From: Maylandia zebra
Lineage: Eukaryota > Chordata > Actinopteri > Cichliformes > Cichlidae
Direction of reading: 5' to 3'
Assembly: GCF_041146795.1 (NCBI RefSeq)
Contig: NC_135169.1
Span: forward strand, 13,641,352-13,705,351
DNA length: 64,000 bases
Each line of letters starts with the position of its first letter. Positions within the stretch are counted from its first letter, which is position 1. The notes under the pieces are model-generated. The model was not told where the DNA came from. It searched no databases and worked only from the letters and a program-made list of their open reading frames with translations. Positions 10,040-57,356 of this stretch are shown here, in pieces. Position numbers and translations under genes: made by a program.

Positions 10040-10052
10040 CATGGATTTTTTT
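10040..10052. repeat. target-site duplication, right copy (LINE insertion)
   Basis: Second copy of CATGGATTTTTTT, directly followed by the resumed Tc1 sequence (TTCACATTCTGTCTCTCACA). Confidence 0.88.
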
Positions 10053-35298: not shown

Positions 35299-36394
35299 TC
35301 ATTTTTGGGGAGAGGGCATGCTGTCCACCTTAGCATAACTGTCTTCAGTTTCAACCCTACTAAGCTGCTCTGTTTGTTGGTGGTACTTCTTCTGGTGGAT
35401 CAGGAGGTGTCTTCTCACACAGTGGCCCTGGCTGAAACCTTTCCCACAGTGTGTGCACTTGTAAGGCTTCTCTCCAGTATGGACTCTCATGTGAGTCACC
35501 ACGTTTGACTTGTGAAAGAACTTCTTGTTGCATTTATCGCAAGCGAACAACCTCTCCCTGCTGTGGTTCTTTGTATGGATCCGTCTGTCTGTGGCTGCCG
35601 TGCTACCCGAGTGAAGTGCCACATGTTGAGACAAAGTATCCAGGTGGCGGAAGCGCTTCCCACACACATTGCAGCTGTGTGGCTTCCCCCCCGCATGATT
35701 GGTCGGCCGGTGAAGTTTGAGCTTCAACTTGGAAAAGTTTTTTCTGTGTGGCTTATCCACTGCATGGACCCGGGACTCATGGTTCTTCAGCACCCACTTC
35801 TCAGGGAACGCTTTGTGGCAGGTTCTACATTTGTACGGCGTGTTTCCCTTGTGTCGAGCGAGGTGACCCCTGTAGCCAACGACGGTGAGGAAGGACTTCC
35901 CGCAGATGTTGCAGGTGTGCGTTTTCTGGTGAGTCTGAAGATGACTCCTGAGCTGCTCTGCAGACACTGACTGCTCTCCACACACTCCACACAGCCTTTC
36001 TCGCTCGTCCACATGACTCCAGGCGTGTTTGATCAGCATGTTTGTCGACCCACGTAAAATCTGGCAGACTTTACAGGACAGCAGAGCCTCGCTGTTGTGA
36101 ATCAACATTTTCTGCTTTGCCTTCTTTATTCGGATGACTGAATGTTTGACTCGTCGATTCCCTTTCGTCTTCTCGGGTTCACCGTTCACCAGATGATCAT
36201 TGGTTATGTTTGGTTTCTCATTGGGAAGCCCATCACTCAACTCGTTGTGTTCATAAAGTATTAAAGATTGCAAGGTCGAGAGACCAGTGTACTCCAAACC
36301 ACCCTCAGATTCCTTCAGCTCCACATCTTTGTGACGTGATGTTGAGCTGTTTGAGAAAATGTTCACTGGATTTTCTTCCGGTTGATGAGGGCTT
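35299..36394 (-). CDS. gene B exon 19: zinc-finger exon, one finger decayed
   Basis: The exon enters in phase 2 (SPHQPEENPVN). Seven fingers have full Cys/His sets: CKVCQILRGST, CGVCGEQSVSA, CNICGKSFLTV, CRTCHKAFPEK, CNVCGKRFRHL, CDKCNKKFFHK and CTHCGKGFSQG. Between the fourth and the CNVCGKRF finger, the block KPHRKNFSKLKLKLH keeps its histidines but has lost both cysteines. A further spacer (SGSTAATDRRIHTKNH) sits between CNVCGKRF and CDKCNKKF where another finger may have been. The gene A counterpart has 12 fingers. Confidence 0.93.
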
Positions 36395-39300
36395 CTGTGG
36401 GAACAGAAATTTTAAGTTTAGAGCTTATTGTTGTTATTAATGACAAACAGTTTACTGGTGAGTTGAGATATTCAAAGTGGTGTCTGTGTAGCATCTTCTA
36501 ACACCACAGAGCATGAATTGATTGGGAGTGAATGTTTCATAAAAAGCAATCTGTCCAGTTAGACTCTTTCAGCAAACCTCAGACTTTTTAACAATTGGAT
36601 CTAACAGGTGGTGCTTACCCCATGTGCAGCCCAGTTTGCTCGGTAAAGGACGGAGACTCTTCAGTGCCGTCAACTTTTCTCTGTAGGTCAAGCTTTTTCG
36701 CGCTAGTCTGGACTCCCTCAGGTGCCTGCGTGAATATCCAAAACATAAAGTCGAATTAGAAATCATTAACCTCTGGTACGTGAGCATACATCAAAATAAC
36801 TTTTAACCCTCTGGGGTTGCCGGACGCGCCGGTGCGTCAAAATCACATGACCAATTTAAGACGACACAGCTACAAGATGCAGCACGTCGGAGTCTCCATT
36901 TCAACTTGGCTCAAAAGTGCGGACTTCAAACTATATACCAGTTTTTGAATTGTGTCGATGGGCCACGTAAAACCAGAGTTATGATAAAAAATACACGCGA
37001 TGTTTTTTTCTGAACAAAATAGTGGCGTTTACAGCGGGAAGGACGGTAAAAACTGCGTTTTCTACAGATATCGCTAGTATATCTCCCTTTGCGAGTGAAA
37101 AAAGAAAAAGAAATAACACCCCTTCCCTATTGGTGTTAGAGTTTACCATGTCAGCCAATCAAAAAAATGATAAGGCAACCTGTGACACTTGGTTGTTTAG
37201 GGAGAAGAGGAAGTTTTTAGGAGTGACACCCGCGACGGAAAGCGGGCGAGCGAAAGACAGAGTGAGAGAGTTTTCCTATGTGAGACATTAGTGACGTTTA
37301 GCGTGTTTGGAGGCTGTAGTTAGTGTGTTGTGTAGTTATTGTCTCGTATTGTGTGTCAGTTAGACTGCTGAATTTCATATTTGCTCTAAAAAAGCCGTCA
37401 AAGGCAGATTCCAGTGTAAATGCTGGTCCCACATGGAAAACTGGACGGATGCACCTCCTGCTGTCAGACCTGTGGTGTTCTCCTCTGTCTTATACTGAAC
37501 ACAAACTATTTTTTTTGGACTGGCACAAATCATTTGTGTGCCTTCTTATTTGGTGCAGCACACCTGATTGTTCTGTAAATAGATTTAAATGGTTATATAA
37601 AAAACCCCTGAGGCCTTGGCTGCATTTTTAGCAAATAGTACCTGATAACTTTGTTGTTTGCAAAACTTGTGCATAATTTTTAGAAATGTACAATTTCTAT
37701 TTGCATTTCAAGTTATGAAAATGATTCGTTAAACATGTTTGTGGGTTTTACAGTAAAAAATATAACTTTTTTCTACTCAGATTTAGAATTTTTTGTCTGA
37801 ATTTAGATCAACTGTGCTAATATAGTATACCAAAATGAAAGAATAACTCAAATTTCAGATATTTGAGGTTGTGCTGAAAATAATGATACCAAACAAGGCA
37901 AGAAAAACATATTTTAAAGGTGAAATATAGAGGTAAAATCAAAAGTAGTCAAAAACGGCCAATTATACCCTGGATGCCAGAGGGTTAAGGCCCCGTGATT
38001 ATTTCCATTTGAACCTAGAAGTAAGAATTTTAGAGCTCCCAGTCGGAATTTTCAACTGGAATGTACATCTCAAGTTGAACTAGCCCTGACTTCACAGTCC
38101 AAGACATCCGACTTCTGAGGCAAATATAAAACGCATCAGTCACAGAGGCGTAGAGACTAGTAATCACTGGTTGCTAGGGAAAAGTGTACTTTACCTCAGT
38201 TGGTTGGTTAGTGGTTGCTAGAGGGTACTTGCTGTTGAGCGGGCGACATTTGCGAAATGAATACTGGAACAAAAATGTCCTACGATTGATTTGGTTGCCA
38301 GTAGACCTCACAGAAGGAGCCAACTTGTCTGCAAACACTTGCCAAATATTTGCTAAGTGGTAGTAAAATTGTGAAAGATGTGATGCAAAGAACTGGAGAA
38401 CATGTGCCTTCAAAGTTGCACCTTATGAAATTTTTTGCCGACTGCAGCATTAAGATGGAAACTTTCCTTTGGAGGTGAATGTTATTAATTTACAGTTTGC
38501 ATCTTGATTTGCTCTACCTTTGTAGAATGAAGGACACACATTTAAAGCAGAGAGCAGTGTTACTTCAGTTTTTGTTGGACTTATTAGACTTTTGGTCAAT
38601 TAATCTATCTAGATCTTTCACAGACATTCTGAAGGACAACACAAATATCTACCCAGTCAGATGCAGTACCTTGAGTCGAACGAAGAGGACAATGCTCCCA
38701 CTCGCCTTGATGGCTCTGTACAGCTCCTCTGGAGTCAATAGCTCTACTTTTAGAGGCTGCAGTCTTCTGTTCCTGTCAGCTGTGAGGACGTCAAAAGGTT
38801 TATCAGCAGCCAGCTGAGGGAAAGTGGACTTCAGCAGTTCCACAAAGTCGGCCTCCTGCAGGCCTCGAGGATACTTCAGGTGATGAAGCGGGTACTTATT
38901 ATACACTGAGAAAAAACAGAGAAGCTCCAATAGTCAGGCAGGTAGTTATCCATGAGACAAACACAACAAACAGTATGCTGACTGTACTAACATTAACAAG
39001 AAAAAAAGAGACAGCTCACCTTACAAGCTACTGCTGCATTAGGCCTACAGATTTTTTTTAAAATAAATTTGATATAAAACCCTAGTGACAGCAATCCTAA
39101 AGGCAACTTTGTCCAACTTTGCCTAATTTTCCAAATCCTGACACTGAAAGTTGAAAACCTAAACAAACACATATCTAAATAATCTAATTTTTAGGTATGG
39201 CCCTAAAAATACATATCAGTGCACATTTGTTACCAATCTGAACACAGAATGAGCAGTTTTAAATTTACCTTTAGGTGAAATCACATTGACATCCCAGTCC

Positions 39301-42300
39301 TGCACAAAGCGGATCCTGAGATCTACATGGGAGCTTGATTGGCTAATCCGAGGCCTACCAGGCTTCCTTCTGTCGGACTGATCCCTGGGAAACAATAACA
39401 TTAGAGACAGACACCACAGCGTTACACTGGCCCCTTTACAGTTATTACCTTTATCTATTTTAATAAGTTGAACAAATGTGAGAAATATTTCCGGAAGCAG
39501 TAAAGATTAGCTTCAAATTTAAGTCCTGTCACTGCAGCAGAGTAAGACAATGTTCAGTACGTTTTTTTAATCTGCAAAAAAATACTTTTTTTCTTAGACC
39601 GGAAAAGTTGGAAAAGCGAGTGTCTCTGAAGGTTCTCAGTCATCCAGGTCATCGATCCCAAGACTTCAGCAGCAGGTCCTTGAGCTCCTGAACTGGGCCC
39701 ATTGTTGAACCACCTTGGAACAGTCTTCGTATCTACCAAGCACTCCACACCAAGAACAACCCACAAAAAAGCTGGATAGAGCACGTTTTAATTTTCATCC
39801 ACACATCTTCAGCAACTGACTGGCTCAATGAACCCCCCACATTATTTAGTCCATTTTGGCCGGTGTGGTGGAGGACACCAAGGAACAAGGTCGTGTTGAC
39901 TGGAGCATTAAAGTATCCCAACAAAGTTGATGCACAGGAATACTGACAATATTTTTCCAACTCACTGTCAGTGATTGTACATCAGTGAACACCACAACTT
40001 TTCTAAACTTGACAGAACTGGAGACTATAAAGTGCACCCTTCCACAGGTATGTTTTCTATGGCCTACTGGGTAACACCAAGGTCCAGGGAACCTCCATGT
40101 GAAGATACCACCTCAACTTTGAAATCTAGGAGCCTTTTTATACCTGCTGTGTGGTAGACCGGAATCAGGATATGTTATTAATCCCCAAGGAATTTATGTA
40201 AAATTATGACAAAGCTGACATCAAATTGATATACCAGCTGCTGTCACTAGGTCTAGCTGTACTGCTGCCGCTCCAGGGTTGAAATGTTGGTTTTTACTTT
40301 TGTTTTAATGATAAATCAATAGTGAAGCTCAAAGTCACAGATTATACAGAGCGAGATCCTGCAACACAGTGCTGACATTATCTGAGTGAGGACACCAAAA
40401 CAAAACAGCCGCCTCCTGTGCCGTAACAGTGAGCATAAATGGATTGGGCTGGGTGACGACATCACTGGCGGCACTTGCAGCGACCAACCTGGCAGTATGC
40501 TGGTGCCGTGAAGTGCAGCAGCTTTCAGTGACAGTCTTGTTTCTTCAGTTACTACCTAACACTCACGACCACATGCGAGTTTGAAGGTTCAAGCATCATC
40601 ACACGTATGTTCCTGTCTCTTTATAGATTTCTATTGAACGGCTAAGACTGATAGTTTGACCGACTCACCTCCCATGCATCACAGTTTGTTCGGGTAAAAA
40701 TGACGACTCTGTAGCTGTGTCCACTTTTTTCTGCAGGTGTTCAAGCTTCCTCGCACCAACCTGGACTTTCTCTGGTGCCTGAAAGAGTTTCGTATTAAAA
40801 AAGAAAAAGAAAAGAAAAGAAATTTTAAAAAAAAAGAGAAAAAAAAAATCACAAAATGTCTTTGCTTCAGCAGAAAACAGTCTTCGATGCATGATAAGGG
40901 CATCCACATTTAGTTTCACGTTTGTACCAGAGAGCAATGTTGTACTTGCTGTACAAGGTTTCCGGATAATGTCGAGTAGGTGTATTTTAAAATGTAGTGA
41001 GTCACAGTACCTTCAGTCGAATGAAGAGGGTATTGATCCTTGATGAATCAATGGCCTTGTAGACCTGCTCTGGAGTCAGTGACTCCACATTCAGAGGTTG
41101 CAGTTTCCTGTTTTTGTCAACCGTGAGGATGTCAAAAGGTACGTTAGCAGCCAGCTGAGGGAAGGTGGACCTCAGCAGTTCCAGAAAGTCGTCCTCCTGC
41201 AGGCTGCGGTGACACCGCAGTTTGTGAAGTGGGTAGTTCTGAAATACTAAGAGGAAAGAGAACAATGAATCCACTCAGTCACAGCTTGTTCAGTTATCCA
41301 TGACGTGTACAACACATAACTAAAAACAGTAAAGATGCTGGGAAGCTTTTTGGCTGATTTATTGTTATTGAACTGAAGCAAACAACCACAGTCAGGGCTC
41401 TTATGAAAATGTAAAATCAGACTTTTTTATTTCTCATTCATGTTTTACAGCTTCAACCCACTCTGCTGGTCTCTAAAGACTGTTTCATTTCCAAAGACTA
41501 GACAAGTCAAGACCACGGTAATTCTTGCCCCGCAGGGAAGGAGTATGTAATCGGCTCAGTTCGTCCGCCTGTCTGTTAGCAGTCTAGCATCCACAGTAGA
41601 CCCATGAGTACCTAGGGTGGCTAACCATTAGACCTTCATGGTTACTGCCCAAAGTCAGAGTTGACATTGAAAGAAAATTTCACAAAACCATTTCGAATAA
41701 TATACAATATGCAGTACTTGTCATAGACCACACCATGCCGTGTCACCACAGCACAAGGAATAAAGTTAATTATTTACATTTACATTTTTAAGGACGGGCA
41801 GAGGACAATAGCTCTGCTGTCTGCTAGCATCCACAAGCTTGCTGTGTATGGATGGCAGCTGAAGCCGTTTCTGGACACACAAGTAGCAGCTGTGCATTTA
41901 CCTTGGGGTGCGACCACCTCCATCTGAGAGTCCTCCAGGATGCGGACCTTCAGATCTACGTGGGAGTCTGATCGACTGAGCTGAGGCTTGCCCAGGCTCT
42001 TCTTGTCAGACTGAACTCTGGGACACAATAACGTTAGTGATGGAGATCAGGCGATAAAACGAGAGATTAAATTGATTAATGAGCAGCTGAGGCTTGTTAA
42101 CATTAACTCACCTGGTGTCCAGTCTGGTTGGATTTGGGGTGGACGGACCGGCTCCCTGTTCCCCCAGAAGGTAAAAACAAAAAAGGTTTGTATCTTAAGT
42201 GTTTCCACCAAAAACAGCAACACTGTCCTTATTTTTATGAGCGACAGATCAGATACTTGGTCTCAAGTTTACACGGTACCTTCAGTCGGACGAAGAGAGT

Positions 42301-45300
42301 AGTGTTTCTCCTTAAGGTGATGGCTCTGTGGATCTCCGCCGGTGTCAGCGTGTCCACACTCAGCGGCTGCAGTACCCGGCTTTTGTCAGCAGTGAGGATG
42401 TCAAAAGGTTTACCTGCAGCCAGCTGAGGGATGGCAGACCTCAGCTGGTCCAGGAAATCAGCCTCCTGTAGATCATAAGGACACCGCAGCTCCTGAATGC
42501 GGCTTTTCAGAAACACTGGGAACACAAAAGCCAAGTAGGTAAGAGTCTGAACTAATAACACGAGTTACAGAGGATATACTGCTGCTGTAGCTTGTGCTGG
42601 TCACAGTCACAGCCGGCGTTTACCGAGAACAATCGAAAAGGTTCACAGTTATATATCAGTTACAGTCATTTGGTTTAAAACGACCCAATGTTATTTGAGG
42701 CGAAATTTCTTTAAATATGATTAATACGTTAACATGACTCAGACCCGTGTGTTGATTTTGTACAAGCCTGCAGGCACTCACAGAGCCTCTTTATAGACAG
42801 ACTGTTAACATTTCAGAGTCTCAGCAGAAAAGCTTCCAGAGAGACACAAGCTGTCGTTGGGGCGACCATGGCTCAGGGGGTTGGGAAGCACATCTGTAAC
42901 CGGAAGGCCGCCGGTTCGATCCCTGGGCTCTCTGTCCTGGTCGTTGTGTCCTTGGGCAAGACACTTTACCCTACCGCCTACTGGTGTTGGCCAGAGGGGC
43001 CAATGGCGCGATATGGCAGCCTCGCTTCTGTCAGTCTGCCCCAGGGCAGCTGTGGCTACAACCGTAGCTGCCTCCACCAGTGTGTGAATGTGAGAGTGAA
43101 TGAATAGTGGTATTGTAAATCGCTTTGAAAAAAAGCGCTATATAAATCCATTATTATTATTATTATTATTATTATCACCTCATACAGGAACTGGAGATGT
43201 GACCTCAGAGCTAAAAGCTTTCAATTTACCTTGGGGTGTGAGCACCTCCATCAGAGGGTCCTCCAGGATCCGGACCCTGAAATCCACATGTGTGAATGGG
43301 TCACTGAGCTCAGATTTGGTAGGTTTCCTCCTAGCAGACTGTACTCTGAGACACAACACACAAAGATGAAAAAGGAGAAGGAAAGGAGATGAATCACAAT
43401 AAAGCTCAAGATCCTGTTGAGACTTTTCAAAATAAACTGAATCACGTGAAAGATGCAGAGTATTGACGGATGAGAAGCAAAAAAGAGCCGCCAGGTGCTA
43501 AAAAATAAACCTTAGACTCAAACGTCAGAACAGGCTTTTCCCTGCAGCACGCCGTGTAATAAAAACGGCGCCCGTTACAACTTATGACTAAAAATGTATC
43601 GTTTCATGCATCAGTTAAAACACTCGACTCCAGCTACACGACGCCCAGCTGGAAACACTTCGCGCAAGTCGAGCTGCCCGAGATTCACAGAATTTACAGA
43701 AAATGTAAAATTTTTGTGATTTATATCGTTATCAGGATGATAGATGTCTTATATGAGATTTTGGTCATATCGCACAGCCCTACTGTCTCATTATGCATTT
43801 AACTTAAAGGAAAGCAGAGGTTTTGGCAGTTTGATGGTTCGCAGCATTCAGGTGTGTGTTAACAGAATGCTGAGGAGGAAAAACATCAGCAACGATCTTA
43901 AAGAAGAAACTGTATCTGCGAGAAAAAAATAGTTACCAAAGAATCTAACATCCATCATTCTGCTTCATTTTCTACAGTGGAAACATTCAAAGCAGCTGCC
44001 GATCTTCTCAGGAGTAAATGCCCCAGCACATTCACCACAAGGTCAGACTGTGCAATGCCCGGAGAAACTACAGGAAACCAAAAAGCTCCATCTCAGACTC
44101 CAAGGTCAGCATGTTAAAGTTCACACACACCTCATACCAAGAGTCGGCACAGTGGGGTGATGATTTGGCCACTTTGCAGTCACCAGAGTCAAGTGCAGAC
44201 CACAGCCTGACTGAGTTTGTTTTTCATCCTGTCTTGATATGCAAAACCTTAAAATTAGGCTTTTACAGATCTGTTTGCTATGGCTGACTAGCCAATATTT
44301 ATTATAGTCAGGTTTTGACTTACCCGGGTTTCTTTCTGGTTGGTTTTAGGGTCAATGGAAGAGTTTCAGCTAAAACATCTCCTACACTCAGGAACTGTTT
44401 CGCTGAGGCTTGAAGCTCCTCCGACGGCTACAGAAGAAAGAAAAGATTTAGTGGTGTACTGTTGGTCTGTGTAGTTAAATGCAAATGTACGGTGCCCCTG
44501 AGAGGACAAACGGACTTCAAGTTAAGAAAACACCAGCAATAAGAAAAACGTTGCAAAACACACAAAACACAAATAGAAAGAAACAGATTTCCAAAAGCAT
44601 AAGGGAAGTGTTTCTGGGGAGACAATAACCCGACGGACCAGCTGCAGGAACCCAAAACATGCTAGGTGTGTTTTATCATGATTCATTTAATACTGATGAT
44701 GGATTTTTAGGCTAATAGTTAGGCTAACACACTTAACTCTGATCTTTTCTTTCCTCACAAACCGATAGATCCTCCACTTCTTTTAAGTGTCTCTCAGTGC
44801 AGTTCTTAGCATATTTTGGTTCCTGCAACTGGTCCGTCGGGTTATTGTCTCCCCAGAAACACTTCCCTTGTGCTTTTGGAAATTTGATTTTTCCTATTTC
44901 TGTTTTAGTTTTTTCTATTTCTGTGTGTTTTGTGTGCTTTTGCAGCGTTTTTCTTATTGCTGGTGTTTTCTTAAGTTGCAGTCCGTTTGGCCTCTCAGGG
45001 CCACCGTACAAATGGCACTCCTGACTGGTCACACGTGGAGTTTTACAACCTATTTAATGCTCAAGATTCTCAGAAAACACAAAGACAGACAATAAACCAG
45101 ATTATTTCTTTGTCTGCTAAGATTTTTTTAGTAGCAGACAAAGGTCTTTGTGAATCAGCACCTTCAGTCGGATGTAGAGCGTAGAAGTCCTCGTAGCCCT
45201 CTCCACCTCCTCCGTCGTCAGTGACCGTACTTTCAGAGGCTTCAGTTTTCTGCTTTTGTCACTCACAAAGAGGTCAAAAGGTTCATCGGCAGTCAGCTGA

Positions 45301-48300
45301 GGGAAGGTGGACCTCAGCAGGTCCACGAAGTCATCCTCCTGTAGACCCCGAGGGCACATTAGCTCATGAAGCGGGCACATCTGATACACTGAAAAACAAT
45401 GAACACACATGGACAGGCTTTTACTATTTAACTTCACAGTCACAAAGAGACACAGTTTGTCCAAAGAGACACCAAACTGGAGGTTTTATTGGGCGCACCT
45501 CTGGCTGAGAGCACGTCAGACTTCATTTTACCCAGGATGCGGATTCTGATCATTACATGCGTCTGTGTTTTCCTGAACCCAGGTCTGCCCACCCTCTTCC
45601 TGAAAGAGTAAAGAAGTCAAAAACAACATTATAACAAATAATTTAGCCTTTTATATACGATGTATCTGTTTGTTTTTGTCCTCTATATTTACTGGTTATT
45701 TACAGCAGCGTTTGAATACTTGAGGTACCTCATGTGCTCAGCAGCAGCTTTATTTCCGTGCAATGGCTGAAGCTCCTCTTCAGCTTCTAAACTCTGCTGA
45801 TTCTGAAATAAAGATGTTTTGACAGTTTTTTTTTTAGAAAAATGGCACAAAAACGAGTCAGACTGCAGGACTGTTCACGATTCTTTCCTTATGAGAAGAT
45901 CCCAACTAGACTGGCTGGATTGCAGCCCCACATCATGACAGAGCCTCCACTGTGTTCTACAGATGGCTGTGGATGCTCACTGTTGTATCTCACTGCACAC
46001 CATGCTGAGATATGACACTTTTTTACCATAATAGCTCTTCAGGAATCACCTTGTTGGTGCAAAAATGCTTTACTTTTGGCATTTTTCATAGATTAATTTA
46101 ATAAAACTAAAGAAATGAAAACAAACTGCCTGCAGATCCATTTTAAAACTGATTCTACGCCAAGTCCTCTGTTCTGTGTAGACACAACACTGGTTCATCC
46201 CTTGAGTTTGAGCCTTTTTATGCTTGAATGATTCATTCTCCAAAAGACACCATCAGAGCAACGAGCAAAGTCAAGAACATAGTTTACAGGAAGTTAACTC
46301 CAGCGAGGGCGTCACACATTAGGCACCTTACCTTCAGGCGGATGTAGAGGGCAGAATTCCCATTTGCCCTGATGGTCCTCTCGATCGCCTCCGGAGTCCA
46401 CAAGTCTATTTTCAGAGGCTGCAGCTTTCTGGTGTTGTCAGTTATAAAAACGTCAAAAGGTTCATCAGCAGCCAGCTGGGGGAAGGTTGACCTAAGCAGA
46501 TGCAGGAAGTCGGCCTCCTGAAGGCCACGACGACACTGCAGCTCATGAAGTGGGTACTTCTGAAACACTGCGATGCAGAGGGATAGACAAGTTTTTATCT
46601 AGACTGCAGGAAAAGCTTCACCCACAGACTACAGGCTTTGATTAAAAACACAAAAAGTGACTTTTTATTCATTCCTGTGCTTTAGCTGTATTTTACAAAT
46701 GCTCCAAATAAGCTGAAATACATTATGAGGTATCTGCAGCAGTCACATTGCCCATAAAACTCCATGTCCTCAGTTTAAAATCATATGGGGAAAAACATCC
46801 AGAGTAAAATCCAAACCCTTAAAGATGCAACAGTAATGGTTTATTTATTTACATCTTTCTCACACTCACCCCTCTTTGAAAGCACGTCGATCATCGAGTC
46901 CAGGATGCGGATCCTGAGGTCCACGAAACTCTGCGTTTCACTGATCCAAGGTCTGTCTGCTCTCCGTCTGTCAGTCTGAACCGTGGAAGGCACGAGCCTA
47001 AAAAAGGAAAAGAACAAAATAACCTCAAGATCAGCAGATGAGTCACAAATGTTACAACAGCACACGCACACACAGAGCGGTGTCTGTACACTTACAGTGT
47101 GTCTGTATCTTGTAACCGTGGTGCTGCTTCATAACACTGCTGTGCCATCTCCTCCTCCTCCTCATCCTCATCTTCATGTTCGTCTTCCTCTATTTGTTCC
47201 TCACTGTAGCCTGAGAATCCCAGGCTTTGGCTGTCCTCCACCCCTGGAAACAAATTCAAAGTTTATTTATTTAGTTTTCCCACATGACAGCATTAATCAT
47301 ACAAATGTGCAACCATGAATAAACAACAGTTAACATGCCGCGTCAGGAAGAGGAAGAAACGCTATTACTCAAATTCTCGTCTTCAAATTTTGTTTGCTGT
47401 TAAAAAAACAATTATACGAGGCTCCAACGAACACTTCTATCACTACTTAGTCTGCCAACCATTATCTGAACATTAAAGCAGTTCTGTAGGACGGTTAATT
47501 ACACTCTCCCCTTCAGTGCGTGAACATGTGATTACAACTGAAACTGTCTGTTGACTGGGGTCAAATTGCAGTCAAATATTTTTTTACCTGAACACTAAAA
47601 AAACTCCAAATGTTTGACTCTATCAGTCTTTTATGTCTCAAATTTGGGAAATTTTGTTGTTTCTGAAATTCAGCTTCAAATTCAGCTTAGTTAATTCAAC
47701 TTATTACTAAGAGAAAAAAAACTGGGAGGTTATAATGCCCAACTGTTCATTACAGCAATGCATTTGACAAAGTCAAATAAAAAGTACCAAATGACATAAA
47801 CAGAAACAACAGTGGGCCCAGAGAGGATCCCTGCAGTACACCACATCTAATTTGAACTGCATTTATACAAACGAACATCCATCGATCGATCGATCGATCG
47901 ATAGATAGATAGTAACATCTCTTATGTTTCTGTGCATCTTGATCCATTACAAATATAAATATGACGACTTTGTTTACATATATCAAAGTAGGTTAAAAGT
48001 CATACTCTGCTCATATTTGTGCTGCTCCTGATCTTCTGGTAGTCGACCTCCTCCAGCCTCACAAAGGGAAAACTGCTGCTGGTCATCTGCACCATATAAG
48101 CATTTTAGTGTTATTAAGTAATAAAACAAAACAATCAAAAAAAAGATTTCACGTCAGAATTATTCTTATGAGCGCAGATGACACTGCTGATTAACGAGCA
48201 ACCTGTTTCATTCTCTTGAGTCACAGCAGTAGATGAGTTAAGCTTTAGATTCACCTGATTTACATGTAAACAAACTGCAGACTCCAGGATTCCCACATTC

Positions 48301-49958
48301 AAATAGCTCTCACATATGGCAGCTATTTGGTGTCCATACAGGCTTTTGCGTGCCTGCAGGTGTTTCCAGGGGAAAGTCCTTTGTGTAGTGGTGTCTACAT
48401 CGGCCTAATACGCCAAAGATTCCCAGTATGATCCCAGGAGGAGACAAAAGTCTCTTTATATTTGTGTCAAATCTGCTAAATCAAAGCACATGGAGCTACC
48501 TGTTGTTTCAACCCCAGAATGGTCAGGTCCAATTTACATACATTTTATTGTCAGAGGGTAAGTGGAACTGTTTTTAGCAAATGCGTGGACAAAACTTATT
48601 ACACTATTACACAAACTACATACACGGAACAACCCATGGACACAGGCCAGCTGACAAGCACTTAGCAACAACTGGTTCCTAGGGAAACATGACTGTTCCT
48701 CGGCAGGTCAAATCAAATCAAATCACTTTTATTGTCACATCACATGTGAGTGAAATTCTAGAGTTGCTAGAGGTTCTTGAGTGACACGAGTCCTTTTTAA
48801 CCACGTTGTTTCTTATTGGCTGCCCCTCGCAGAGACTTGAAGGCTAGAGAGCACATTTAAGGATATCCCGTTTCATGACATAGGCCAGATCCAACCATAG
48901 ACAGCTGTAAAAAAAAATTAAATATATAAGGGATATGTTCTAAAAAAATGGGTGTCTACAAAAAAATAAAGGACTGTGATTATTAGCAAGAGAAGTCAAT
49001 GCTTATTTGAAGGTTCGCAAAGACATTAATGTGAAGATGAACGACGAAGTCAAAAGAAACACCCCCACCCGCCCCAAAAAGGTTACGGGTAATATCTAAA
49101 CATTATATACGTTGGGAACTTAAAACCGCTGGTTTCACAGCACAGCTGTGTGTTAACTATAGCACAGTATTTTTTATAGTTGATTTAAATAGATTTCAAT
49201 AGAAACAGTCATGGCAAGCGCTGTAAAATCGCACCACAGCGCTTGAACAAACACCGTTGTGTCCATGTAGCCGGCAGGCCGCCATCTTTGTTTTGATTCG
49301 GGAACAGCGGCGCAACTTGGGAAACGATTTAAAATGTTTATTTAAATCAGTCACTAGGATGGGTTTTTTAAGTCCCGATGACTCTGTCATCATTCTAGAG
49401 AGGGTTTTATAGCAGCTGTAGCTGACTTTAAACGACATTTCAAGGCTTTAAAAGCCCACCGGATTTCACTTAAAGAGAAACCAAAGGCTAGCTTTGTGAC
49501 ATTACCACGAGCCAATAAAAACTTAAAATTCTGAAATATGACATGGCTCAGGGGTGTTACATGTATACCAAATTAAGGAGTGTTATAATCAGGTTTTGAG
49601 ATGAATACTCGAATGTCAATGGGCTTCACGTCAAGCAAAGAAATGTTAAATTAGTGTTTTGTAAACGGGGTTCGTCATTACGCGAGCTCTCGCTCTCTCC
49701 GCAGGAAACAACACACTGTTCTGTTATCCACACACACAGACCTAAAGCCTCTAACTTGACTTCAGGCTGCAGGAGCTCCAGCAGTCTCCTCTGCCGGTCA
49801 ATCTCCTGCCTGAAACCCACAGCCTCCTCCTCGTAGTCGGCTACAGTCTTCTCCATCACCGCTAAGATCTCCCGGGCGGCCAAGGTGAGCTTCTCGGCGA
49901 TGACTCCTCTCAGCATGTCGGTTTTGGACGTATTGGGGTCGGATGAGTCCGGCTCCAT
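35299..49958 (-). CDS. gene B: C2H2 zinc-finger protein with five tandem beta-grasp-like modules
   Basis: Nineteen exons join in frame: 49958-49742, 48086-48006, 47243-47096, 46997-46870, 46567-46332, 45802-45729, 45599-45499, 45388-45162, 44427-44324, 43345-43230, 42515-42280, 42155-42112, 42017-41902, 41246-41011, 40778-40669, 39384-39269, 38905-38670, 36725-36619, 36394-35299. The total is 3,729 nt, 1,242 residues plus stop. All splice sites are GT-AG and every phase fits, which strongly supports the model. The layout is gene A's with the module repeated five times, each copy followed by a linker exon. The C-terminal exon has 7 good fingers and one decayed finger, so DNA binding is probable. 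Gene C starts 630 bases away on the other strand. No stop or frameshift is seen. Expression is unknown. Confidence 0.88.
36619..36725 (-). CDS. gene B exon 18: linker before the fingers
   Basis: It encodes APEGVQTSAKKLDLQRK, then EESPSFTEQTGLHMG, running from phase 0 to 2. It is clearly homologous to the linker exon at 40669-40778. Confidence 0.88.
36807..37984. mobile_element. piggyBac-like non-autonomous element
   Basis: The ends CCCTCTGGGGTTGCC and the complement of CCCTCTGGCATCC are flanked by TTAA at 36803-36806 and 37985-37988, the signature target of piggyBac. No transposase is present. It sits in an intron of gene B. A diverged partial relative lies at 54768-55240. Confidence 0.82.
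38670..39384 (-). CDS. gene B exons 16-17: module copy 5
   Basis: Exon 16 (39384-39269) reads RRKPGRPRISQSSSHVDLRI then RFVQDWDVNVISPK. Exon 17 (38905-38670) reads VYNKYPLHHLKYPRGLQEAD, STFPQLAADKPFDVLTADRN and ends VLFVRLK. It is a full-length module. Confidence 0.88.
40669..40778 (-). CDS. gene B exon 15: linker between modules 4 and 5
   Basis: APEKVQVGARKLEHLQKKVD then SSFLPEQTVMHG, phase 0 to 2. Its likeness to the 36619-36725 linker indicates recent duplication of a whole cassette. Confidence 0.88.
41011..42017 (-). CDS. gene B exons 13-14: module copy 4
   Basis: Exon 13 (42017-41902) reads KKSLGKPQLSRSDSHVDLKV then RILEDSQMEVVAPQ. Exon 14 (41246-41011) reads VFQNYPLHKLRCHRSLQEDD, FPQLAANVPFDILTVDKN and ends LFIRLK. 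Confidence 0.88.
42112..42155 (-). CDS. gene B exon 12: short linker
   Basis: A 44-base exon encodes GAGPSTPNPTRLDT, phase 0 to 2. It keeps the frame although it is less than half the size of the other linkers. Confidence 0.8.
42280..43345 (-). CDS. gene B exons 10-11: module copy 3
   Basis: Exon 10 (43345-43230) reads RRKPTKSELSDPFTHVDFRV then RILEDPLMEVLTPQ. Exon 11 (42515-42280) reads VFLKSRIQELRCPYDLQEAD, AIPQLAAGKPFDILTADKSR and ends TLFVRLK. The usual STFPQLA is SAIPQLA here. A SINE lies in the intron between them. Confidence 0.88.
42862..43176 (+). mobile_element. tRNA-derived SINE with (ATT)n tail
   Basis: It has an A box-like CATGGCTCAGGGGGTTGGG, B box GGTTCGATCCC, TGTCCTTGGGCAAGACACTT and the ending AAAGCGCTATATAAATCC followed by (ATT)n at about 43149-43175. 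It lies in an intron of gene B, antisense. Confidence 0.9.
43855..44165 (+). mobile_element. Tc1-like transposase fragment in a gene B intron
   Basis: NRMLRRKNISNDLKEE resembles the start of a Tc1 transposase. The DNA at 43990-44160 (CATTCACCACAAGGTCAGAC, TGCCCGGAGAAACTACAGG) resembles the region next to it in fish Tc1 elements. No inverted repeats were found. Confidence 0.5.
44324..44427 (-). CDS. gene B exon 9: linker between modules 2 and 3
   Basis: PSEELQASAKQFLSVGD, then LTLKPTRKKPG, phase 0 to 2. Confidence 0.85.
44484..45014. repeat. long inverted repeat in a gene B intron
   Basis: The left arm 44484-44664 (GTACGGTGCCCCTGAGAGG ... GAACCCAAAACATGCTA) is repeated inverted at 44806-45014 (TAGCATATTTTGGTTCCTGC ... 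GGCCACCGTAC). The arms are about 180-200 bases, the loop about 140. The pre-mRNA could fold into a long hairpin. Spurious open frames on both strands come from this repeat. Confidence 0.88.
45162..45599 (-). CDS. gene B exons 7-8: module copy 2
   Basis: Exon 7 (45599-45499) reads RKRVGRPGFRKTQTHVMIRI then RILGKMKSDVLSAR. Exon 8 (45388-45162) reads VYQMCPLHELMCPRGLQEDD, STFPQLTADEPFDLFVSDKS and ends TLYIRLK. Confidence 0.88.
45729..45802 (-). CDS. gene B exon 6: linker between modules 1 and 2
   Basis: NQQSLEAEEELQPLHGNK then AAEHM, phase 0 to 2. Confidence 0.83.
46332..46997 (-). CDS. gene B exons 4-5: module copy 1
   Basis: Exon 4 (46997-46870) reads RRRADRPWISETQSFVDLRI then RILDSMIDVLSKR. 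Exon 5 (46567-46332) reads VFQKYPLHELQCRRGLQEAD, STFPQLAADEPFDVFITDNT and ends ALYIRLK. Confidence 0.9.
47096..47243 (-). CDS. gene B exon 3: acidic exon
   Basis: It starts VEDSQSLGFSGYSEEQ and has a run of about 20 Asp/Glu-rich residues (EEDEHEDEDEEEEE) before AAPRLQDTDT. It is homologous to gene A exon 3 and gene C exon 3. Confidence 0.87.
47750..47860 (-). mobile_element. tiny LINE reverse-transcriptase scrap
   Basis: The minus strand reads GVLQGSSLGPLLFLF, the RT motif usually written GVPQGSxLGPLLF. Flanking residues do not extend the match. Confidence 0.5.
47879..47911. repeat. (ATCG)n/(ATAG)n microsatellite
   Basis: About five ATCG units followed by three ATAG units. Confidence 0.93.
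48006..48086 (-). CDS. gene B exon 2
   Basis: An 81-base exon, phase 1 to 1, reading DDQQQFSLCEAGGGRLPEDQ then EQHKYEQ. It matches gene C exon 2 almost residue for residue (DDQQLFSICEDGGGPLLDDQ). Confidence 0.87.
48087..49741. other. intron 1 of gene B
   Basis: No internal gene. A short LINE-like 3' tail on the minus strand at about 48706-48770 (AATAAAAGTGATTTGATTTG) is the only recognised repeat. Confidence 0.45.
49742..49958 (-). CDS. gene B exon 1: N-terminal helical segment
   Basis: MEPDSSDPNTSKTDMLRGVI then EKLTLAAREILAVMEKTVAD, YEEEAVGFRQEIDRQRRLL and ELLQPEVKLEA. The donor is GTCTGT, weak but placed exactly as GTCGGT in gene C. The start ATG at 49958 is the only one that fits. Confidence 0.88.
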
Positions 49959-50588: not shown

Positions 50589-50838
50589 ATGAGCGACTCG
50601 ATGATGATGACGATGGTGCAGAGCTGGGACAGCGAGCCAGACATCGCTAATATGTCCAAGAGCGACATACTGAGAGGAATCATCACCGACAAACTGAGCA
50701 CAGCCGCTCGGGAGATCTTATCGGTGGTGGAGCGGACTGTAGCCGACTATGAGGAGGAGGCTGCGGGCTTCAGGCAGGAGCTCGACCGGCAGAGGAGACT
50801 GCTGGAGCTCCTGCAGCCTGAGATAAAGCAGGAGGCAG
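50589..50838 (+). CDS. gene C exon 1: N-terminal helical segment
   Basis: It begins MSDSMMMTMVQSWDSEPDIA, then MSKSDILRGIITDKLSTAAR and the same charged helix as gene A, ending LLELLQPEIKQEA. A later ATG (MSKSD, 50652) could also start. Ends phase 1 before GTCGGT. Confidence 0.88.
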
Positions 50839-53800
50839 GTCGGTGTTTTAGCCCCTGTAACATTTATTGAAGTGCTTTGAAACACTCAGCGGCCACTATA
50901 TTAGGTACTCTTTCATCTTCTCGTTAATGCAAACAACAAATGAGCCAATCACATAGCAGCAACTTGATGTCTTCAAATGGCCAAGACAACCTACAGTAGC
51001 TCAAAATGAGAATCCGAGTGAGAAAGAAAGGTCTTTGGTGCCAGACGGGCCTGTCTGCTGGGATTTTCCCACGCAACCATATCTAGGGTTTACAGAGATT
51101 GGCCTGAAACTGACGATACGTCGTTTTTTTTGTACCTATCGTTTGTTTCGTAGGGTCTCAAAATAAACTGTGTACGCCAATATTTTTTCATGGTTTTGAT
51201 GGTTACTGTAGTGGCTATATTAATTCCTTAGAGTTCTCTCTTTCTCTTATGATTAATATGATCACACACCGGACCGACTGAGTACTTTGGTTAGCAACAA
51301 CGACGCTAAAACCATTGTGTGGCTCCGCCGTCCGCTTGTTTATATTCCACATAAAACTTTCACAATAAAGCTCAATATTCTGTCGAGACTCAAAAATAAA
51401 CTCAAATGATATACATTATTGTCAAACATCAAATTTCAGATATTACATTAAACAAATTGGCTCAAATAAAAACATGTACTTATAAATGGCACTTACAGTC
51501 AAAGGAATAGAGGATCCAGACAAGAGAATGCCAGGATGGCCAGTGAAGATGAGCCAAAACCAGGTAGCTCCAAACACAAGGACCAGTCAAACAAATTGAG
51601 CACCTTATTCCTAAACGAGGGACTACATCTGTAGCATTAACATGGTTGGTTATGAACAGTCTGACACGGACCAGGAAATTGTACTATGCAAATTATAATG
51701 CAAACCGGTCCCCGCCATGGACTCAAACATGGAAAACCACTTTTACCACCTATGCAACAACTTGTCTAAAAATGTATAGCTTCATGTATCAGTGACTCCG
51801 CACCTAGTGTAGTCTGGCTCCAGCAGATCCTAGGAAAAACGTTGGAGATCTCTGTCCAGAAGACTGCAGTCCTAGAAACAGCTAAGATACTGCTTAGGAC
51901 CCTCAATGCTCCAAAGCTTCTGGTATAGGACCCAAGCTCAAAGGATATGTGCCACAAAGAATTAAAGCAATTAGGTACTAGCAAGGTGTACCTAATAAAG
52001 TGTCTGGTGAGTGTATAAAACGTACAGGATACTCATCAACTTGATTGTAATGGAGACCAGGGGTTCCATTACCTGGTTGGTATTGTTAATAATAAATAGT
52101 TGGATTGGGAATTTAAAATAGGGTAATAAAGAAAACACATTAGTTCTTTTGGAGTCTTTTATTAGGTTATTTGACATACGATTAAATTGACAGCTTGTAA
52201 CAGAAAAGAGACAGTGGGACTGGCCATCCTACCTGTGTCGGAGAAGAGCCAAAGTTAGAGCTGTTTGCAGTTAATCATTTATCAATAACCTAAACATATG
52301 TGAAATGAGAACTTGTAAAGGTACTCACCTGTCCTAGTTGTTTCTTGCAGGATGTGGAGCAAAAGAGTGAAAGCGGCTCAATCACCTGTTTAAGAGCTCT
52401 TGGAGCAGACCAGTGTGCCAGGTTAGGGAGTATGGATAAAGAGGGTTTTAATTTAGATAGAAATGGGTGAAGCTTATGTTATTGGTTTGTTTATAGTATG
52501 TGTTGGAAATATGTATATGTTTGTGATGTGCTTTAATGTTATTGTATGTTTGTTTGTGTGGAGGGTTATGTGTTCATTTTGATTAGTTAACCCCCATACT
52601 TGGGCTATTCCAGATGCTCACCTGAAAAGGTAGAGTATAAAAGGAAGCCATTTTGTTTAGTTGTAGTTAGTGTTTGTGCTGTTATCATGCTCCTTCTTTA
52701 ATAAAGTGTCAATCCATGGATGTCTTTTACTCCAGTCTTGTGTCATATTATTGGACAGAACCTATGACCGCCGGCCAAAACTGACATTGATGTGGATCTT
52801 AACATTGCTAGAAACTTTTTTCCATTTATCTTCTATCATATCACATTTGGTTTTTCTAAAATTGAACATTAAACATACTTTTGCAGATGACCAGCAGCTG
52901 TTTTCCATCTGTGAAGATGGAGGTGGTCCATTACTGGATGATCAGAAGCAGGACAAATATGAGCTGAGTAAGAAGCTACTTTGACATACATGAATAAAGT
53001 TCAGTTCTAGACAGGACTGCTGTTTCATGTCTCTTACATGAAACAACAACATGTCTCTTATATATACATATATATATAAGAAAGATACATTAGCTCATGT
53101 CCTCTTAAAGCACAAACAGTAGATAGTAGCAGCATGCTCCCTTTCGGTTATATAAATGGTCAAGTTCTTGTTGAGCTGGGCAACACATAATTGTGACTAA
53201 CATAAGAATTTATTTGTTCCTAGGGGTGGACGACAGTAGCAGCCTGGGATTTCAGGCACCGATAGAGGATGAAGAGTATGAATATTTAGAGCAGGAGGAA
53301 GGATACACGACAGAGCTGGATTATGTAACAACATCAAGGTTAAAAGACAAGTGCATAAATGTCTACTATGTACAAAAGTATATGTGTTATCTTTTGTATC
53401 CCAGCTCCCGTTTTTCCGTGTTTTCCTTAGGTTCTTGACTCAAACAGTCCCGTCTAAGAGGAGAAAAAAACATGGCAAACGTCGAATCAGCAAATCACAA
53501 AATTGCATAGATCTCAAAATCCGCATATTGGAAAACCCAAACATTGAAGTGCTTTCAAATACTGGTAAGTCTAAAGCAAACGTGATGTGAAATTTAAATG
53601 TTAAAAACAGAATGAAAACACCTCAGTACACATGAAACTCTGGAGCAGATGTGGAAGATTTCACTGTGATTGATTCAGTGTTCCTCTGTGTTCTAGTGTT
53701 TCGGATGTACCGGCTTCACAAGCTGAAGGTTCGTCGTGGTTTGAAGGAAGCTGACTTCCTGAAACTACTCAGGTCTACCTTCCCTCAGCTGGCTGGAGAT

Positions 53801-56800
53801 GAACCTTTTGACCTTTTCTTATATTGCAACCTCAAGAAACTGAAACCTCTGCAAGTAGACTCTGTGACACCAGAGGAAATCATCAGAGTTTCTCGGGGAT
53901 CTACCCTCTACATACGACTGCAGGTACTGTGCTGAGAAGATTTAACTGATCTCAACAGCGTTACCAAAGATTACAACACATTGACAACTTGATTTGAGAA
54001 GAAAATTCCAACCTTCTGTAAAACAGAAAGAAGATGCTGATGAAGATCATGAAGATCTTCCATCCACTGAGACAGACACCCATATAAATCTCAGAATCCG
54101 CATCCTGGAAAAGCGAAAGATTAATGTTTTGTCAAAACAAGGTAAGTCTAAAGCAAACATGATGTGAAATTTAGATGTTTCTGCTATAAAAATGCAGCAC
54201 ATGTAAGCCGTATATCACCTTGTTACCTACTAGGTAAGTTCTGAAGTGCTTTTCACCCTTTTACCTGCTCGGAGATCGGTCTATTAAACACAGGTGAAGC
54301 TGATGGTCTCCACCACACCTCTATACCAAAAACAGTCATTTGCACCTTGTAAATCACAATTGTTGATGCCAGTAATGCTCGAGAGCAGCTGAAACCCTGG
54401 TCAGGACCAATGTTCCCTCTAAGCTGCGTACTGCGTACAGAAAATCTAGGTTGTGCGCAAAAAAAAAATCTAACCTGAATTGAAATTAAAGTAAATATTT
54501 TAACAATTCTGTCTTTTGCAGTGTTAGTAAGTGACTGGCTGCTCCCGTATGGGGTTAGACCGATGCCACCTTATCCCATAGTCCAGCCAATAATGCGATT
54601 CACATTCGTATATACGCAGCTAATCAACATCGCTAACAGGCTATGACAGCGTCCTTATGTGTCGACACCGGTGTTTTAGCTAGCAAAGTGGCGTGACTGA
54701 TGTGGCGTGAAGCCACGTTAGTGTATAACCATTGGAGATGTGAGCAGGACAGACAGAACAATTGACGGAATAAGTGTGGACTTTATACCAGTTTTTAAAT
54801 TGTGTTGATAGGCCACGTAAAACCAGAGTTGTGACAAAAATATCTGCAATGTTTGGTTTTCTTCCTGAATATTATCATTGTTTATATTTACTGCGGGAAG
54901 AAATGGTAAAAACTGCGTTTTATAAGGAAAACGCTCGAAAGCACTCTCCACCTGTGAGCAAAGACAAAACCAAAAAGCCCCCACCCTTTCCCATTCGTCG
55001 AAAAATGTACCATGTCGACCAATCAAAACATGATATGGCAATATGGCATTTAGTGGTTTAGGAATGGGGGGGCATCAAATTTGATGCAGAACAGCTGACT
55101 GTTCCGTAAATAGTTTGAAATGTTTTTTTAAAAAAATGCCTTAGTTGCATTTTTAGGTAAACAGTTGCAAAAAACTTTGTTTGCAAAACTCAGTAACTTT
55201 TTTGAAGAAGTAACTATATAATTAACTGCCCGACATCAACTGTATTTTGCAGACAGAGCGTTACAGGACTATCTCCCAGACCAGACTCATACCCATAATA
55301 CAAGTCAGAGCTTGTATGTAAATGTAAATGCTATAATTTGATTATTTTAATAAACCATGTAACTTGGATGGATTCGATGCTGGCATGACCACAGTGCACA
55401 CGTCTGATGTCGCTCACAATGGTCCAAGGGATCGCTCAGGGAGTTTGTGTGTTCGCTCAGACACATGAAAAATTAGAGGGAACATTGGTCAGGACACATA
55501 TACCGTTTGTGCTGCCTCCCTGCACTCTACATGGACATCTTCATCTTTCTGCACTACTCCCTGGTCTAAGAATTGTAACATATTAATAAAGAAATATGTA
55601 CTATAATACCAAGAATATTTTCATTATAAAACACAATGAAAACACCTCAGTACACATGAAACTCTGGAGCAGATGTGGAAGATTTCACTGTGATGATTGG
55701 AACATTAGGAGCCCATGTCACCACTGGTACCTCCAAACTGTGAAAGCAGATTCCAGATTCAATTGGAAAGTAGTATCAGACGAACATTTAGTGAAAGTAC
55801 AACAGGAAAGTGATGATTTCTTTCTCCTAATACTGGAAAAATTGAACTGATCTCTCAGCGTTCCTCTGTGTTCTAGTGTTTCAGACGTGCCCGCTTCACA
55901 AGCTGAAGGTTCATCGTGGTTTGCAGGAAGCTGACTTCCTGAAACTACTCAGGTCTACCTTCCCTCAGCTGGCTGGAGATGAACCTTTTGACCTTTTTTT
56001 AAGGGCCAAGCACAACAAACTCAAACCTCTGAAAGGAGACTCTGTGACACCAGAGGAAATCATCAGACTTTCTCGGGGATCTACCCTCTACATACAACAG
56101 TCACTGTGTCCAGAAGATTTAAGACTTAAGATCCGCATCCTTGAGGACCCTAAGATTGATAAGATCACAAATATAAGTAAGTTTAAAGCTTTTAACCTTC
56201 AAAGATCTTTGGAAGGATTTGATGCCGTTAACGTTTTCTACCTCTTATTAGCTCCTTAACTTGATTTAGAGGCTTTGCATGTCTCAAGAGTCCAACGTAC
56301 TAGTCATCCAGCTCTCTGTGCAGGTTTGCTGAGTTACCCGTTTATTAGTTGATTCAGGAAAACATGTCTTCTAACTTGTCGATGACTGAAACTGCTTTGA
56401 CTGTAGTCACACTGCCCGCTGTCTTAAAAAACCTCGTAACATTATAAAAGATACCTCACACTCTGGCCACTCCCTGTTTGAACTGTTGCCCTCGGGCCGA
56501 CGGTACAAAGCAATCAGCGTAAGGACAAACAGACTCAAACACAGCTTTTACCAAATCAGAAAAATATGTCTTGATGCTGCTACTCCTGAAGTGATTTTAT
56601 TTTACAAATTTTATTTAAAGTTTACATTTGTATGGATGATGCATTGATCAGAGATCAATTCTAATTTCGTTCTACCTGTGACAATGACAAAAAAGACATT
56701 CTGATTCTGACTTTGTGAGCTTCTCTGTTTTCTCTCAGTGTGTCAGAATCACCCGTCTCATGAGCTGAATGTTCCTCGTGGTCTTCAGGAGGCTGACTTC

Positions 56801-57356
56801 CTGGCTCTGCTGAGGTCCACTTTCCCTCAGCTGGCTGCTGGTGAACCTTTTACCATCTTAATTGGTCGCAACCACAATCTAATTCCTCCAAGAGTGGAGA
56901 GTATGACTGCAGAAGAGATCTGCAAGAATGGGACTGGGAATCCTGGTATTTACATCCGACTGAAGGTACTGCAAGAACCAATTTAACATCAGGGTGAAAA
57001 CATTGTTTAAATGTGGAGCATGTTGTTCTGAATGAAAAATCAGAAAAAAACTATTCTTTTACTTTTTGGTGGAAATTTAGGGTCCAGAGAAAAGGTCTCT
57101 ACAGAGAGAAGATGCTACTGCTGCTGAACTTCCTCCACCCAGCCTGGATCCAACCACACTGACCACTGAGTGAGTCAAAGAAAAGAGTAAGCTGCTGCTG
57201 TTAGAGTTTGTTATTTATGTCAACAGTTCAATCCAATTTTGTTCTTTTCCCCCAGAGTTGAGTCTGAGAAACCTCAGATCAGTCAATCAGACACCCACGT
57301 GCATCTCAAGGTCCACATTGTGGAGGACCCTCAGATGGATACCATCTCGCCCAATC
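50589..57356 (+). CDS. gene C: paralogue with three and a half modules, no zinc-finger exon found
   Basis: Ten exons join in frame: 50589-50838, 52887-52967, 53224-53338, 53431-53564, 53697-53923, 54027-54141, 55877-56176, 56739-56965, 57081-57169, 57256-57356 (1,639 nt, about 546 codons). The N-terminal helix and acidic exons match genes A and B. Modules 1-3 are complete. Module 4 has only its first exon, which ends in phase 1 at a GTAAGT donor. The expected second exon and the finger exon are not found before 64000. Read-through of the last donor gives a stop at 57374-57376. Either the gene continues beyond the window across the transposon-rich 3' region, or it is a truncated copy. No internal stop is seen. 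Confidence 0.78.
50887..52012. mobile_element. Tc1-like element remnant in intron 1 of gene C
   Basis: Left end CACTCAGCGGCCACTATATT and right end CTAATAAAGTGTCTGGTGAG are inverted partners. The DNA at 50935-51115 (GCCAATCACATAGCAGCAAC, GGTGCCAGACGGGCC) matches a familiar fish Tc1 interior. The rest of the transposase is replaced by unrelated DNA, including repeat R1. Confidence 0.75.
51588..51980. repeat. repeat R, copy 1
   Basis: About 375 bases nearly identical to 57797-58168 (for example CATTAACATGGTTGGTTATG and AGTGTAGTCTGGCTCCAGCA). See the duplication finding. Confidence 0.92.
52887..53338 (+). CDS. gene C exons 2-3: acidic segment
   Basis: Exon 2 (52887-52967) reads DDQQLFSICEDGGGPLLDDQ then KQDKYEL. 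Exon 3 (53224-53338) reads VDDSSSLGFQAPIEDEEYEY then LEQEEGYTTELDYVTTS. The exon 3 donor GTTAAA is weak, as in gene A. Confidence 0.85.
52980..53041. repeat. segment S, copy 1
   Basis: The block TGACATACATGAATAAAGTT ... GGACTGCTGTTTCATGT just after exon 2 recurs at 58896-58958 with few changes. Confidence 0.88.
53431..53923 (+). CDS. gene C exons 4-5: module copy 1
   Basis: Exon 4 (53431-53564) reads KRRKKHGKRRISKSQNCIDL then KIRILENPNIEVLSNT. Exon 5 (53697-53923) reads VFRMYRLHKLKVRRGLKEAD, STFPQLAGDEPFDLFLYCNL and ends TLYIRLQ. Confidence 0.88.
54027..54141 (+). CDS. gene C exon 6: fused linker and first module exon
   Basis: One exon carries both an acidic linker (KEDADEDHEDLPSTETD) and the strand LRIRILEKRKINVLSKQ. 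It runs from phase 0 to 1, the sum of a linker exon and a first module exon, so the intron between them has gone. Confidence 0.85.
54142..55876. other. intron 6 of gene C
   Basis: It holds a diverged relative of the piggyBac-like element (54768-55240). The block at 55619-55690 (ACACAATGAAAACACCTCAG ... GATTTCACTGTGAT) duplicates the end of intron 4 (about 53608-53672), evidence of tandem copying of the module. Confidence 0.6.
54768..55240. mobile_element. partial relative of the piggyBac-like element
   Basis: TTATACCAGTTTTTAAATTG and GGCCACGTAAAACCAGAGTT match the 36.9-kb element. No terminal repeat or TTAA pair is seen. Confidence 0.6.
55877..56176 (+). CDS. gene C exon 7: fused second exon of module 2 and first part of module 3
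   Basis: It reads VFQTCPLHKLKVHRGLQEAD, STFPQLAGDEPFDLFLRAKH, STLYIQQ and then directly CPEDLRLKIRILEDPKID, with almost no linker. Phase 1 to 1. Both the intron and most of the linker between two modules are lost. Confidence 0.87.
56404..56718 (+). mobile_element. L2-like LINE 3' end in intron 7 of gene C
   Basis: Coding remnant HSGHSLFELLPSGRRYKAIS is the usual end of an L2/CR1-type ORF2, followed by a T-rich UTR and an ATTCTGATTCTGA tail. Confidence 0.8.
56739..56965 (+). CDS. gene C exon 8: second exon of module 3
   Basis: CQNHPSHELNVPRGLQEADF, STFPQLAAGEPFTILIGRNH and ending GIYIRLK. Phase 1 to 0. Confidence 0.87.
57081..57356 (+). CDS. gene C exons 9-10: linker and first exon of module 4
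   Basis: Exon 9 (57081-57169) reads GPEKRSLQREDATAAELPPP. Exon 10 (57256-57356) reads EKPQISQSDTHVHLKVHIVE then DPQMDTISPN before GTAAGT. The partner exon is not found downstream. Confidence 0.82.

Follow-up and report, generated by a model that had tools for sequence, protein, structure and literature searches.

A predicted ubiquitin-like module present in five copies in a C2H2 zinc-finger gene of Maylandia zebra

A stretch of 64,000 nucleotides from the cichlid Maylandia zebra (NC_135169.1, positions 13,641,352 to 13,705,351; below, the window, with positions counted from its first letter) carries a gene, here called gene b, in which five tandem copies of a module of ~110 residues are predicted to precede an array of C2H2 zinc fingers. 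The module belongs to a small gene family and is multiplied in gene b. With a probability of about 0.62 for the explanation taken as a whole, gene b is a member of a small C2H2 zinc-finger subfamily defined by a shared N-terminal exon and by the module, in which a basic, sometimes AT-hook-like lead-in is followed by a beta-grasp docking domain. What computation shows of this explanation is the presence of five copies, an intact reading frame across the predicted splices, a predicted fold, an association that holds across the family, and constraint at the protein level. All gene models are sequence predictions from splice sites, frames and profiles; splice sites were scored with a simple, generic consensus matrix, and counts of matches in the genome are lower bounds.

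Gene model and gene family

Gene b lies on the minus strand, from the ATG at 49958 to the stop that ends the zinc-finger frame at 35299 (Table 1). The predicted model has 16 exons in the order N-terminal exon, acidic exon, five modules and C2H2 fingers; spliced together they form one frame of 1176 codons, the last of which is the only stop. Each module comprises an exon A and an exon B, and the five A/B pairs, between 46997 and 38670, were located by six-frame reading, a motif scan and splice scoring. The B exons form one direct-repeat family (5 copies, 245 nt), the other four being 67–76% identical to the reference copy. The original prediction, made from the letters of the window, had described five copies of a two-exon unit in 35299..49958. 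The five copies were recovered by six-frame reading, motif scan and direct-repeat search, and the limits proposed for module 1 (46997-46870 and 46567-46332) are exactly the best-scoring splice sites. The quoted motifs, RKLQPLKV, TPEEI and TLYIRLK among them, hold as consensus forms and do not occur verbatim in every copy. The range indeed spans stop to ATG, but the module also occurs outside it (22039-27064, from 50652 and 16394-16962), and several of the A/B pairs carry a third exon, exon C.

Exon C was sought because of the splice phases: the best acceptor of all five A exons and of the finger exon requires an upstream exon ending in phase 2, whereas the end of exon B, at an AAG/GT shared by all five copies, is in phase 0. 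A strict two-exon, phase-0 unit was dropped as a gene model for the same reason. Exon C is short and runs from phase 0 to phase 2, and its copies after modules 4 and 5 and in the repeat that follows gene c (see below) are mutually similar. By splice sites and frame, 8 of 14 scanned intervals gave candidates: those after modules 2, 4 and 5, two in gene e, one each in genes d and f, and one in the gene c repeat. The remaining six gave none; they lie between modules 1 and 2, between modules 3 and 4, one each in genes a and g, and the last two in gene c. Between modules 1 and 2, laxer limits yielded only weak candidates, and the printed frames of gene a, read by eye, suggest an exon C with scores below the limits of the scan. 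At the junction of modules 1 and 2 the frame is kept only via a donor ending at 46327 (score 1.0, versus 7.4 for the best donor, in phase 0), and at that of modules 3 and 4 via an acceptor 7 nt further in (−2.8 versus 0.2). An A-B-C cassette begins and ends in phase 2 and is thus duplicable without a frameshift; because of this phase symmetry the copies could have multiplied.

The family was defined with profiles of exon A, exon B, the N-terminal exon and the fingers, over the cluster and two outlying places. Queried with exon B at E ≤ 0.001, the 962-Mb genome gave at least 18 matches, all of those listed lying on one 64 Mb contig and 16 of the listed 18 within about 0.1 Mb. The profile scan found at least seven genes, a to g, with fingers joined to modules in six of the seven. 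By profile, one module accompanies 12 fingers in genes a and g and nine in genes d and f, two modules accompany 12 fingers in gene e, and five accompany six in gene b; canonical fingers by pattern number 12 (a, f and g), 11 (e), 8 (d) and 7 (b), and degenerate fingers are seen by eye between those of gene b. The N-terminal exon had at least 11 matches in the genome. The seven at E 1.2e-16 or better are genes a to g, so that module and N-terminal exon go together in all seven strong matches; the other four (E 2.6e-8 to 5e-6) lie on other contigs. The module had been put forward as both multiplied and joined to a DNA-binding array. Both features are seen, but the joining is the ordinary architecture of the subfamily, and what is special in gene b is the copy number.

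Predicted fold and likeness to PB1 domains

For two modules, one of them module 5, the predicted order of elements is beta-beta-alpha-beta-beta-alpha-beta, and the models superpose on solved ubiquitin-like beta-grasp members over most of the domain. The nearest listed structures of both models are mostly what we take, from their names, to be ubiquitin-like domains, with PB1 and USP7-type ubiquitin-like (UBL) domains as tied best matches. The list of the first module has USP7 UBL domains on top and includes USP15, at 9–16% identity in the USP7/USP15 rows; that of the second includes 3tuo and 4q2j (SATB1 ULD), and the Foldseek list includes the Ring1B C-terminal domain/RYBP and SAP18. For the families listed, the Foldseek and VIA-align lists point to no one family. 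The module probably folds as a ubiquitin-like beta-grasp domain, as originally predicted, and no contrary fold appeared. The lack of a C-terminal Gly-Gly was also borne out: the last strand ends in RLK in 5/5 copies of gene b and continues into the next exon.

A profile of 15 aligned rows from the gene family was compared with four families (PB1, RAWUL, ubiquitin and RBD), the sequences of which were entered by hand. PB1 had the highest raw score, 17.7, with 56 columns spanning helix 1 through strand 5 in the expected register; the maximum among 60 decoys was 18.6, and 5 of 250 decoys reached 17.7, none of the 250 over at least 50 columns. RAWUL, represented by one sequence, scored 15.5, above all 60 decoys (maximum 15.2), over only 11 columns, and ubiquitin and RBD scored at decoy level. 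A basic residue in strand 1 (R/K) is invariant in 15/15 rows. In the alignment with p62 PB1 (6jm4) both models pair their residue 17 with chain residue 3, and R/K at 21 falls on p62 Lys7 if the alignment of strand 1 is ungapped. In type I PB1 domains strands 3 and 4 flank an acidic OPCA motif; in the alignment of the modules this acidic cluster is absent and its place holds mostly basic residues.

The module might be a genuine but divergent PB1 domain of type II, the basic class, binding an acidic PB1 domain or its own acidic exon in head-to-tail assembly. The raw profile score, the tied structural matches of both models and the position of R/K 21 argue for this, but at least one of 60 decoys scores higher, Pfam PB1 matches none of the 15 members, and basic residues stand where the type I OPCA cluster sits; we regard it as a minority possibility. 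Taken together, the PB1 score, the basic residue of strand 1 and the missing OPCA motif make a module that works like a basic PB1 domain a fair lead; that it is a PB1 domain goes beyond the evidence. A more elaborate scheme, in which the basic strand-1 face of tandem PB1-like modules docks on the acidic exon of neighbours, the proteins polymerize along target DNA and silence it, and module number sets the strength, appears improbable.

Other invariant positions cluster at the start (E54, D/E56, F57) and end (S63, P66, Q67, L68) of helix 1, and are likely to form a family-specific surface or core. In the lead-in, a GRP core occurs in 4 of the 15 rows (modules 2 and 5, genes a and g). An AT-hook motif is a GRP core flanked by basic residues; Pfam gave no AT-hook match in module 5, and the basic lead-in could add DNA contact in some modules.

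Constraint and copy number

The ratio of nonsynonymous to synonymous substitution rates (dN/dS) had a median of 0.39 over the 105 pairs of 15 B exons, with 75% of pairs below 0.5, and of 0.61 over 61 usable pairs (of 66) of 12 A exons. Variation was highest at third codon positions, both in exon B (0.42 versus 0.29 and 0.26) and in exon A (0.48 versus 0.44 and 0.29). These values are consistent with a coding unit under moderate constraint rather than with five decaying copies; the computation shows that the modules are constrained at the protein level.

The array of gene b has the fewest canonical fingers and is the most divergent of six (36–39% identity to the others). Together with the 4.8-kb module repeat of the neighbouring gene c (98.3% identical), the broken module at 16394 and the two weak splice junctions, it would fit passive multiplication, in which a phase-symmetric cassette was copied in a duplication-prone cluster, the extra copies are neutral and the gene is possibly decaying. 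Against this, the frame is open in the finger exon, in both leading exons and throughout the five modules, and the ten pairs of gene b B exons have dN/dS values of 0.32–0.62; we consider passive multiplication unlikely. A single clade of the gene b modules was present in 0 of 200 bootstrap trees; 8 of the 12 inner branches were open, and the starred branches still permit such a clade.

Genes a and g (27064-22039 of the window; C3:3599473-3604050) lie 10 Mb from each other on the contig and are nearly copies of one another: their finger exons agree at 418 of 432 aligned residues (97%). Five of their nine within-finger differences fall at recognition-helix positions −1, 2, 3 or 6. The chance of this is roughly 0.02 to 0.04 by hand arithmetic, and it is therefore only a hint that binding specificity is what changes.

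Searches for named domains

Two modules had no Pfam match. With 15 modules, five Pfam families were matched by one member each at chance level (E 0.044 to 0.17), one of them Ubiquitin_IARS1, the ubiquitin-like family of isoleucine--tRNA ligase (E 0.11), and the single NCBIfam match (E 0.21) was also at chance level. Curated profiles did not recognize the module as a ubiquitin-like beta-grasp domain (best Pfam E 0.044, in 1 of 15 members). The best PDB matches, a designed ankyrin protein for the single sequence (E 0.016) and Borealin for the profile (E 0.087, covering the module start only), were taken as chance. The 843 residues before the gene b fingers and the N-terminal part of gene a had no Pfam match at E 0.1; KRAB was found neither in these 843 residues at that threshold nor in the match list of the finger exon. 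Thus, as far as its sequence goes, the module matches no named domain in Pfam-A or NCBIfam, in line with the original prediction.

A docking domain of the ubiquitin system, like the RAWUL domain of PRC1 or the UBLs of USP7/USP15, would bring ubiquitin- or Polycomb-type machinery to DNA. USP7 on top of the first structural list, with USP15 in it, Ring1B/RYBP and SAP18 in that of Foldseek, and a RAWUL score above all decoys are consistent with such a role; the shortness of the RAWUL match, the low identity to USP7/USP15 and the failure of Pfam, at E up to 0.1, to show any catalytic or RING part in the 843 residues that precede the fingers make it doubtful. That the domain has already been described under a name absent from the libraries compared is improbable: the comparison covered Pfam-A (2025), NCBIfam and open-licence literature, the first two gave chance-level matches only, and no description was found in the parts of that literature consulted.

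Neighbouring genes and other features

Gene a has an acidic frame at 25225-25046 that resembles exon 2 of gene b by eye. Gene c contains three A/B pairs and one exon A, followed downstream of the window by the repeat of its module region. The stretch searched, which is partly N, showed no finger array; gene c may be a protein of modules alone or a duplicate left incomplete. At 55846-56259 (+) of gene c a B exon continues in frame, intronless, into the next A exon, strand 5 directly abutting the next strand 1.

The truncated module at 16394-16962 directly precedes an open frame at 17035-17712 (+) that by eye resembles a Tc1-like transposase, as if broken by its insertion. Further open frames at 3793-4440 (−) and 7705-10096 (−) resemble, by eye, Tc1-like transposase and long interspersed nuclear element (LINE) reverse transcriptase. 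The idea of the module as a mobile-element product was set aside, since the 18 listed exon-B matches lie on one contig, in or beside these genes. Viral contigs gave 61 pattern matches, none of them confirmed.

Table 1. Predicted exons of gene b and other module-bearing features of the window.
Feature	Positions	Strand	Basis
Gene b exon 1: ATG and N-terminal helical-looking segment (LRGVIAEKL..RQRRLLELLQPE), donor phase 1	49742..49958	-	profile, genome search, spliced model
Gene b exon 2: acidic exon (EEDEHEDEDEEEEE), phase 1 to 2	47096..47243	-	splice scores, spliced model
Module 1 exon A: basic lead-in and strand 1	46870..46997	-	profile, splice scores
Module 1 exon B: strand 2 to strand 5	46332..46567	-	profile, splice scores, spliced model
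Module 2 exon A: GRP core	45499..45599	-	profile, splice scores
Module 2 exon B	45162..45388	-	profile, splice scores
Module 2 exon C: linker, phase 0 to 2	44324..44427	-	splice sites and frame only
Module 3 exon A	43230..43345	-	profile, splice scores
Module 3 exon B, followed by module 4 without an exon C candidate	42280..42515	-	profile, splice scores, exon C scan
Module 4 exon A: weak phase-0 acceptor 7 nt downstream of phase-2 one	41902..42010	-	profile, splice scores, spliced model
Module 4 exon B: competing acceptor 41238 scores 6.2 versus 6.1	41011..41246	-	profile, splice scores
Module 4 exon C (APEKVQVGARKLEHLQKK..)	40669..40778	-	sequence likeness, splice sites and frame
Module 5 exon A: RKPGRPRIS, AT-hook-like core	39269..39384	-	motif scan, profile, splice scores
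Module 5 exon B	38670..38905	-	profile, splice scores; predicted structure
Module 5 exon C (APEGVQTSAKKLDLQRK..)	36619..36725	-	sequence likeness, splice sites and frame
C2H2 zinc-finger exon, stop at end	35299..36394	-	motif scan, Pfam, profile, splice scores
Gene a: N-terminal exon as in gene b; acidic frame; 12 fingers; single module (A 24916-24812, B 24550-24323)	22039..27064	-	profile, pattern
Gene c: N-terminal exon 50652-50834; modules 53456-53923, 54036/55876-56097, 56125/56738-56965; exon A 57257-57355	50652..57355	+	profile
Broken module copy: exon A and truncated exon B	16394..16962	+	repeat/profile search

Discussion

It is plausible that the module is an interaction domain and a nuclear adaptor; its most likely role is docking, with repetition increasing the valency of a DNA-bound protein. 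In the subfamily proposed here, the predicted domain would serve protein–protein interaction, and two invariant features would mediate it: the basic residue in strand 1 and the E-x-D/E-F...S-T-F-P-Q-L region of the helix. Avidity would arise from the tandem copies, one DNA-bound molecule showing five docking sites. The proteins might, with less confidence and by analogy with other rapidly evolving zinc-finger clusters, be repressors, and one may speculate that the acidic exon is an intramolecular or neighbouring partner of the basic domain.

PB1 domains (p62/SQSTM1, PKC iota, Par6) are among the tied best structural matches and agree with the module in how strands and helices follow one another and in the invariant basic strand-1 residue; the module differs in its lack of an acidic OPCA motif and of a Pfam PB1 match, and in its tandem occurrence within a zinc-finger protein. 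USP7 bears several UBL domains in a row, and the UBLs of USP7/USP15 resemble the module in fold, whereas no protease domain was detected in gene b by Pfam, sequence identity is low and each module spans its own intron. The ULD of SATB1 likewise is a ubiquitin-like domain within a DNA-binding nuclear protein. FiNZ-ZNF and KRAB-ZNF clusters are alike in consisting of C2H2 genes with a family-specific N-terminal part. In zebrafish, blocking the translation of FiNZ-ZNFs derepresses transposons, and FiNZ is a 28-residue, single-exon sequence of cyprinids (PMC10547256). In contrast, the family described here has a multi-exon predicted fold in tandem and no KRAB match.

Known zinc-finger clusters vary their fingers and have a short effector, for example KRAB or FiNZ, in common. 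In the present family a second element varies, namely how many predicted folded modules (1, 2, 5, perhaps more) separate the fingers from the N-terminal exons. The effect of effector valency on transcriptional control could be tested naturally by comparing the one-copy and five-copy sister genes, provided that the module binds a cofactor, and the domain merits a family model.

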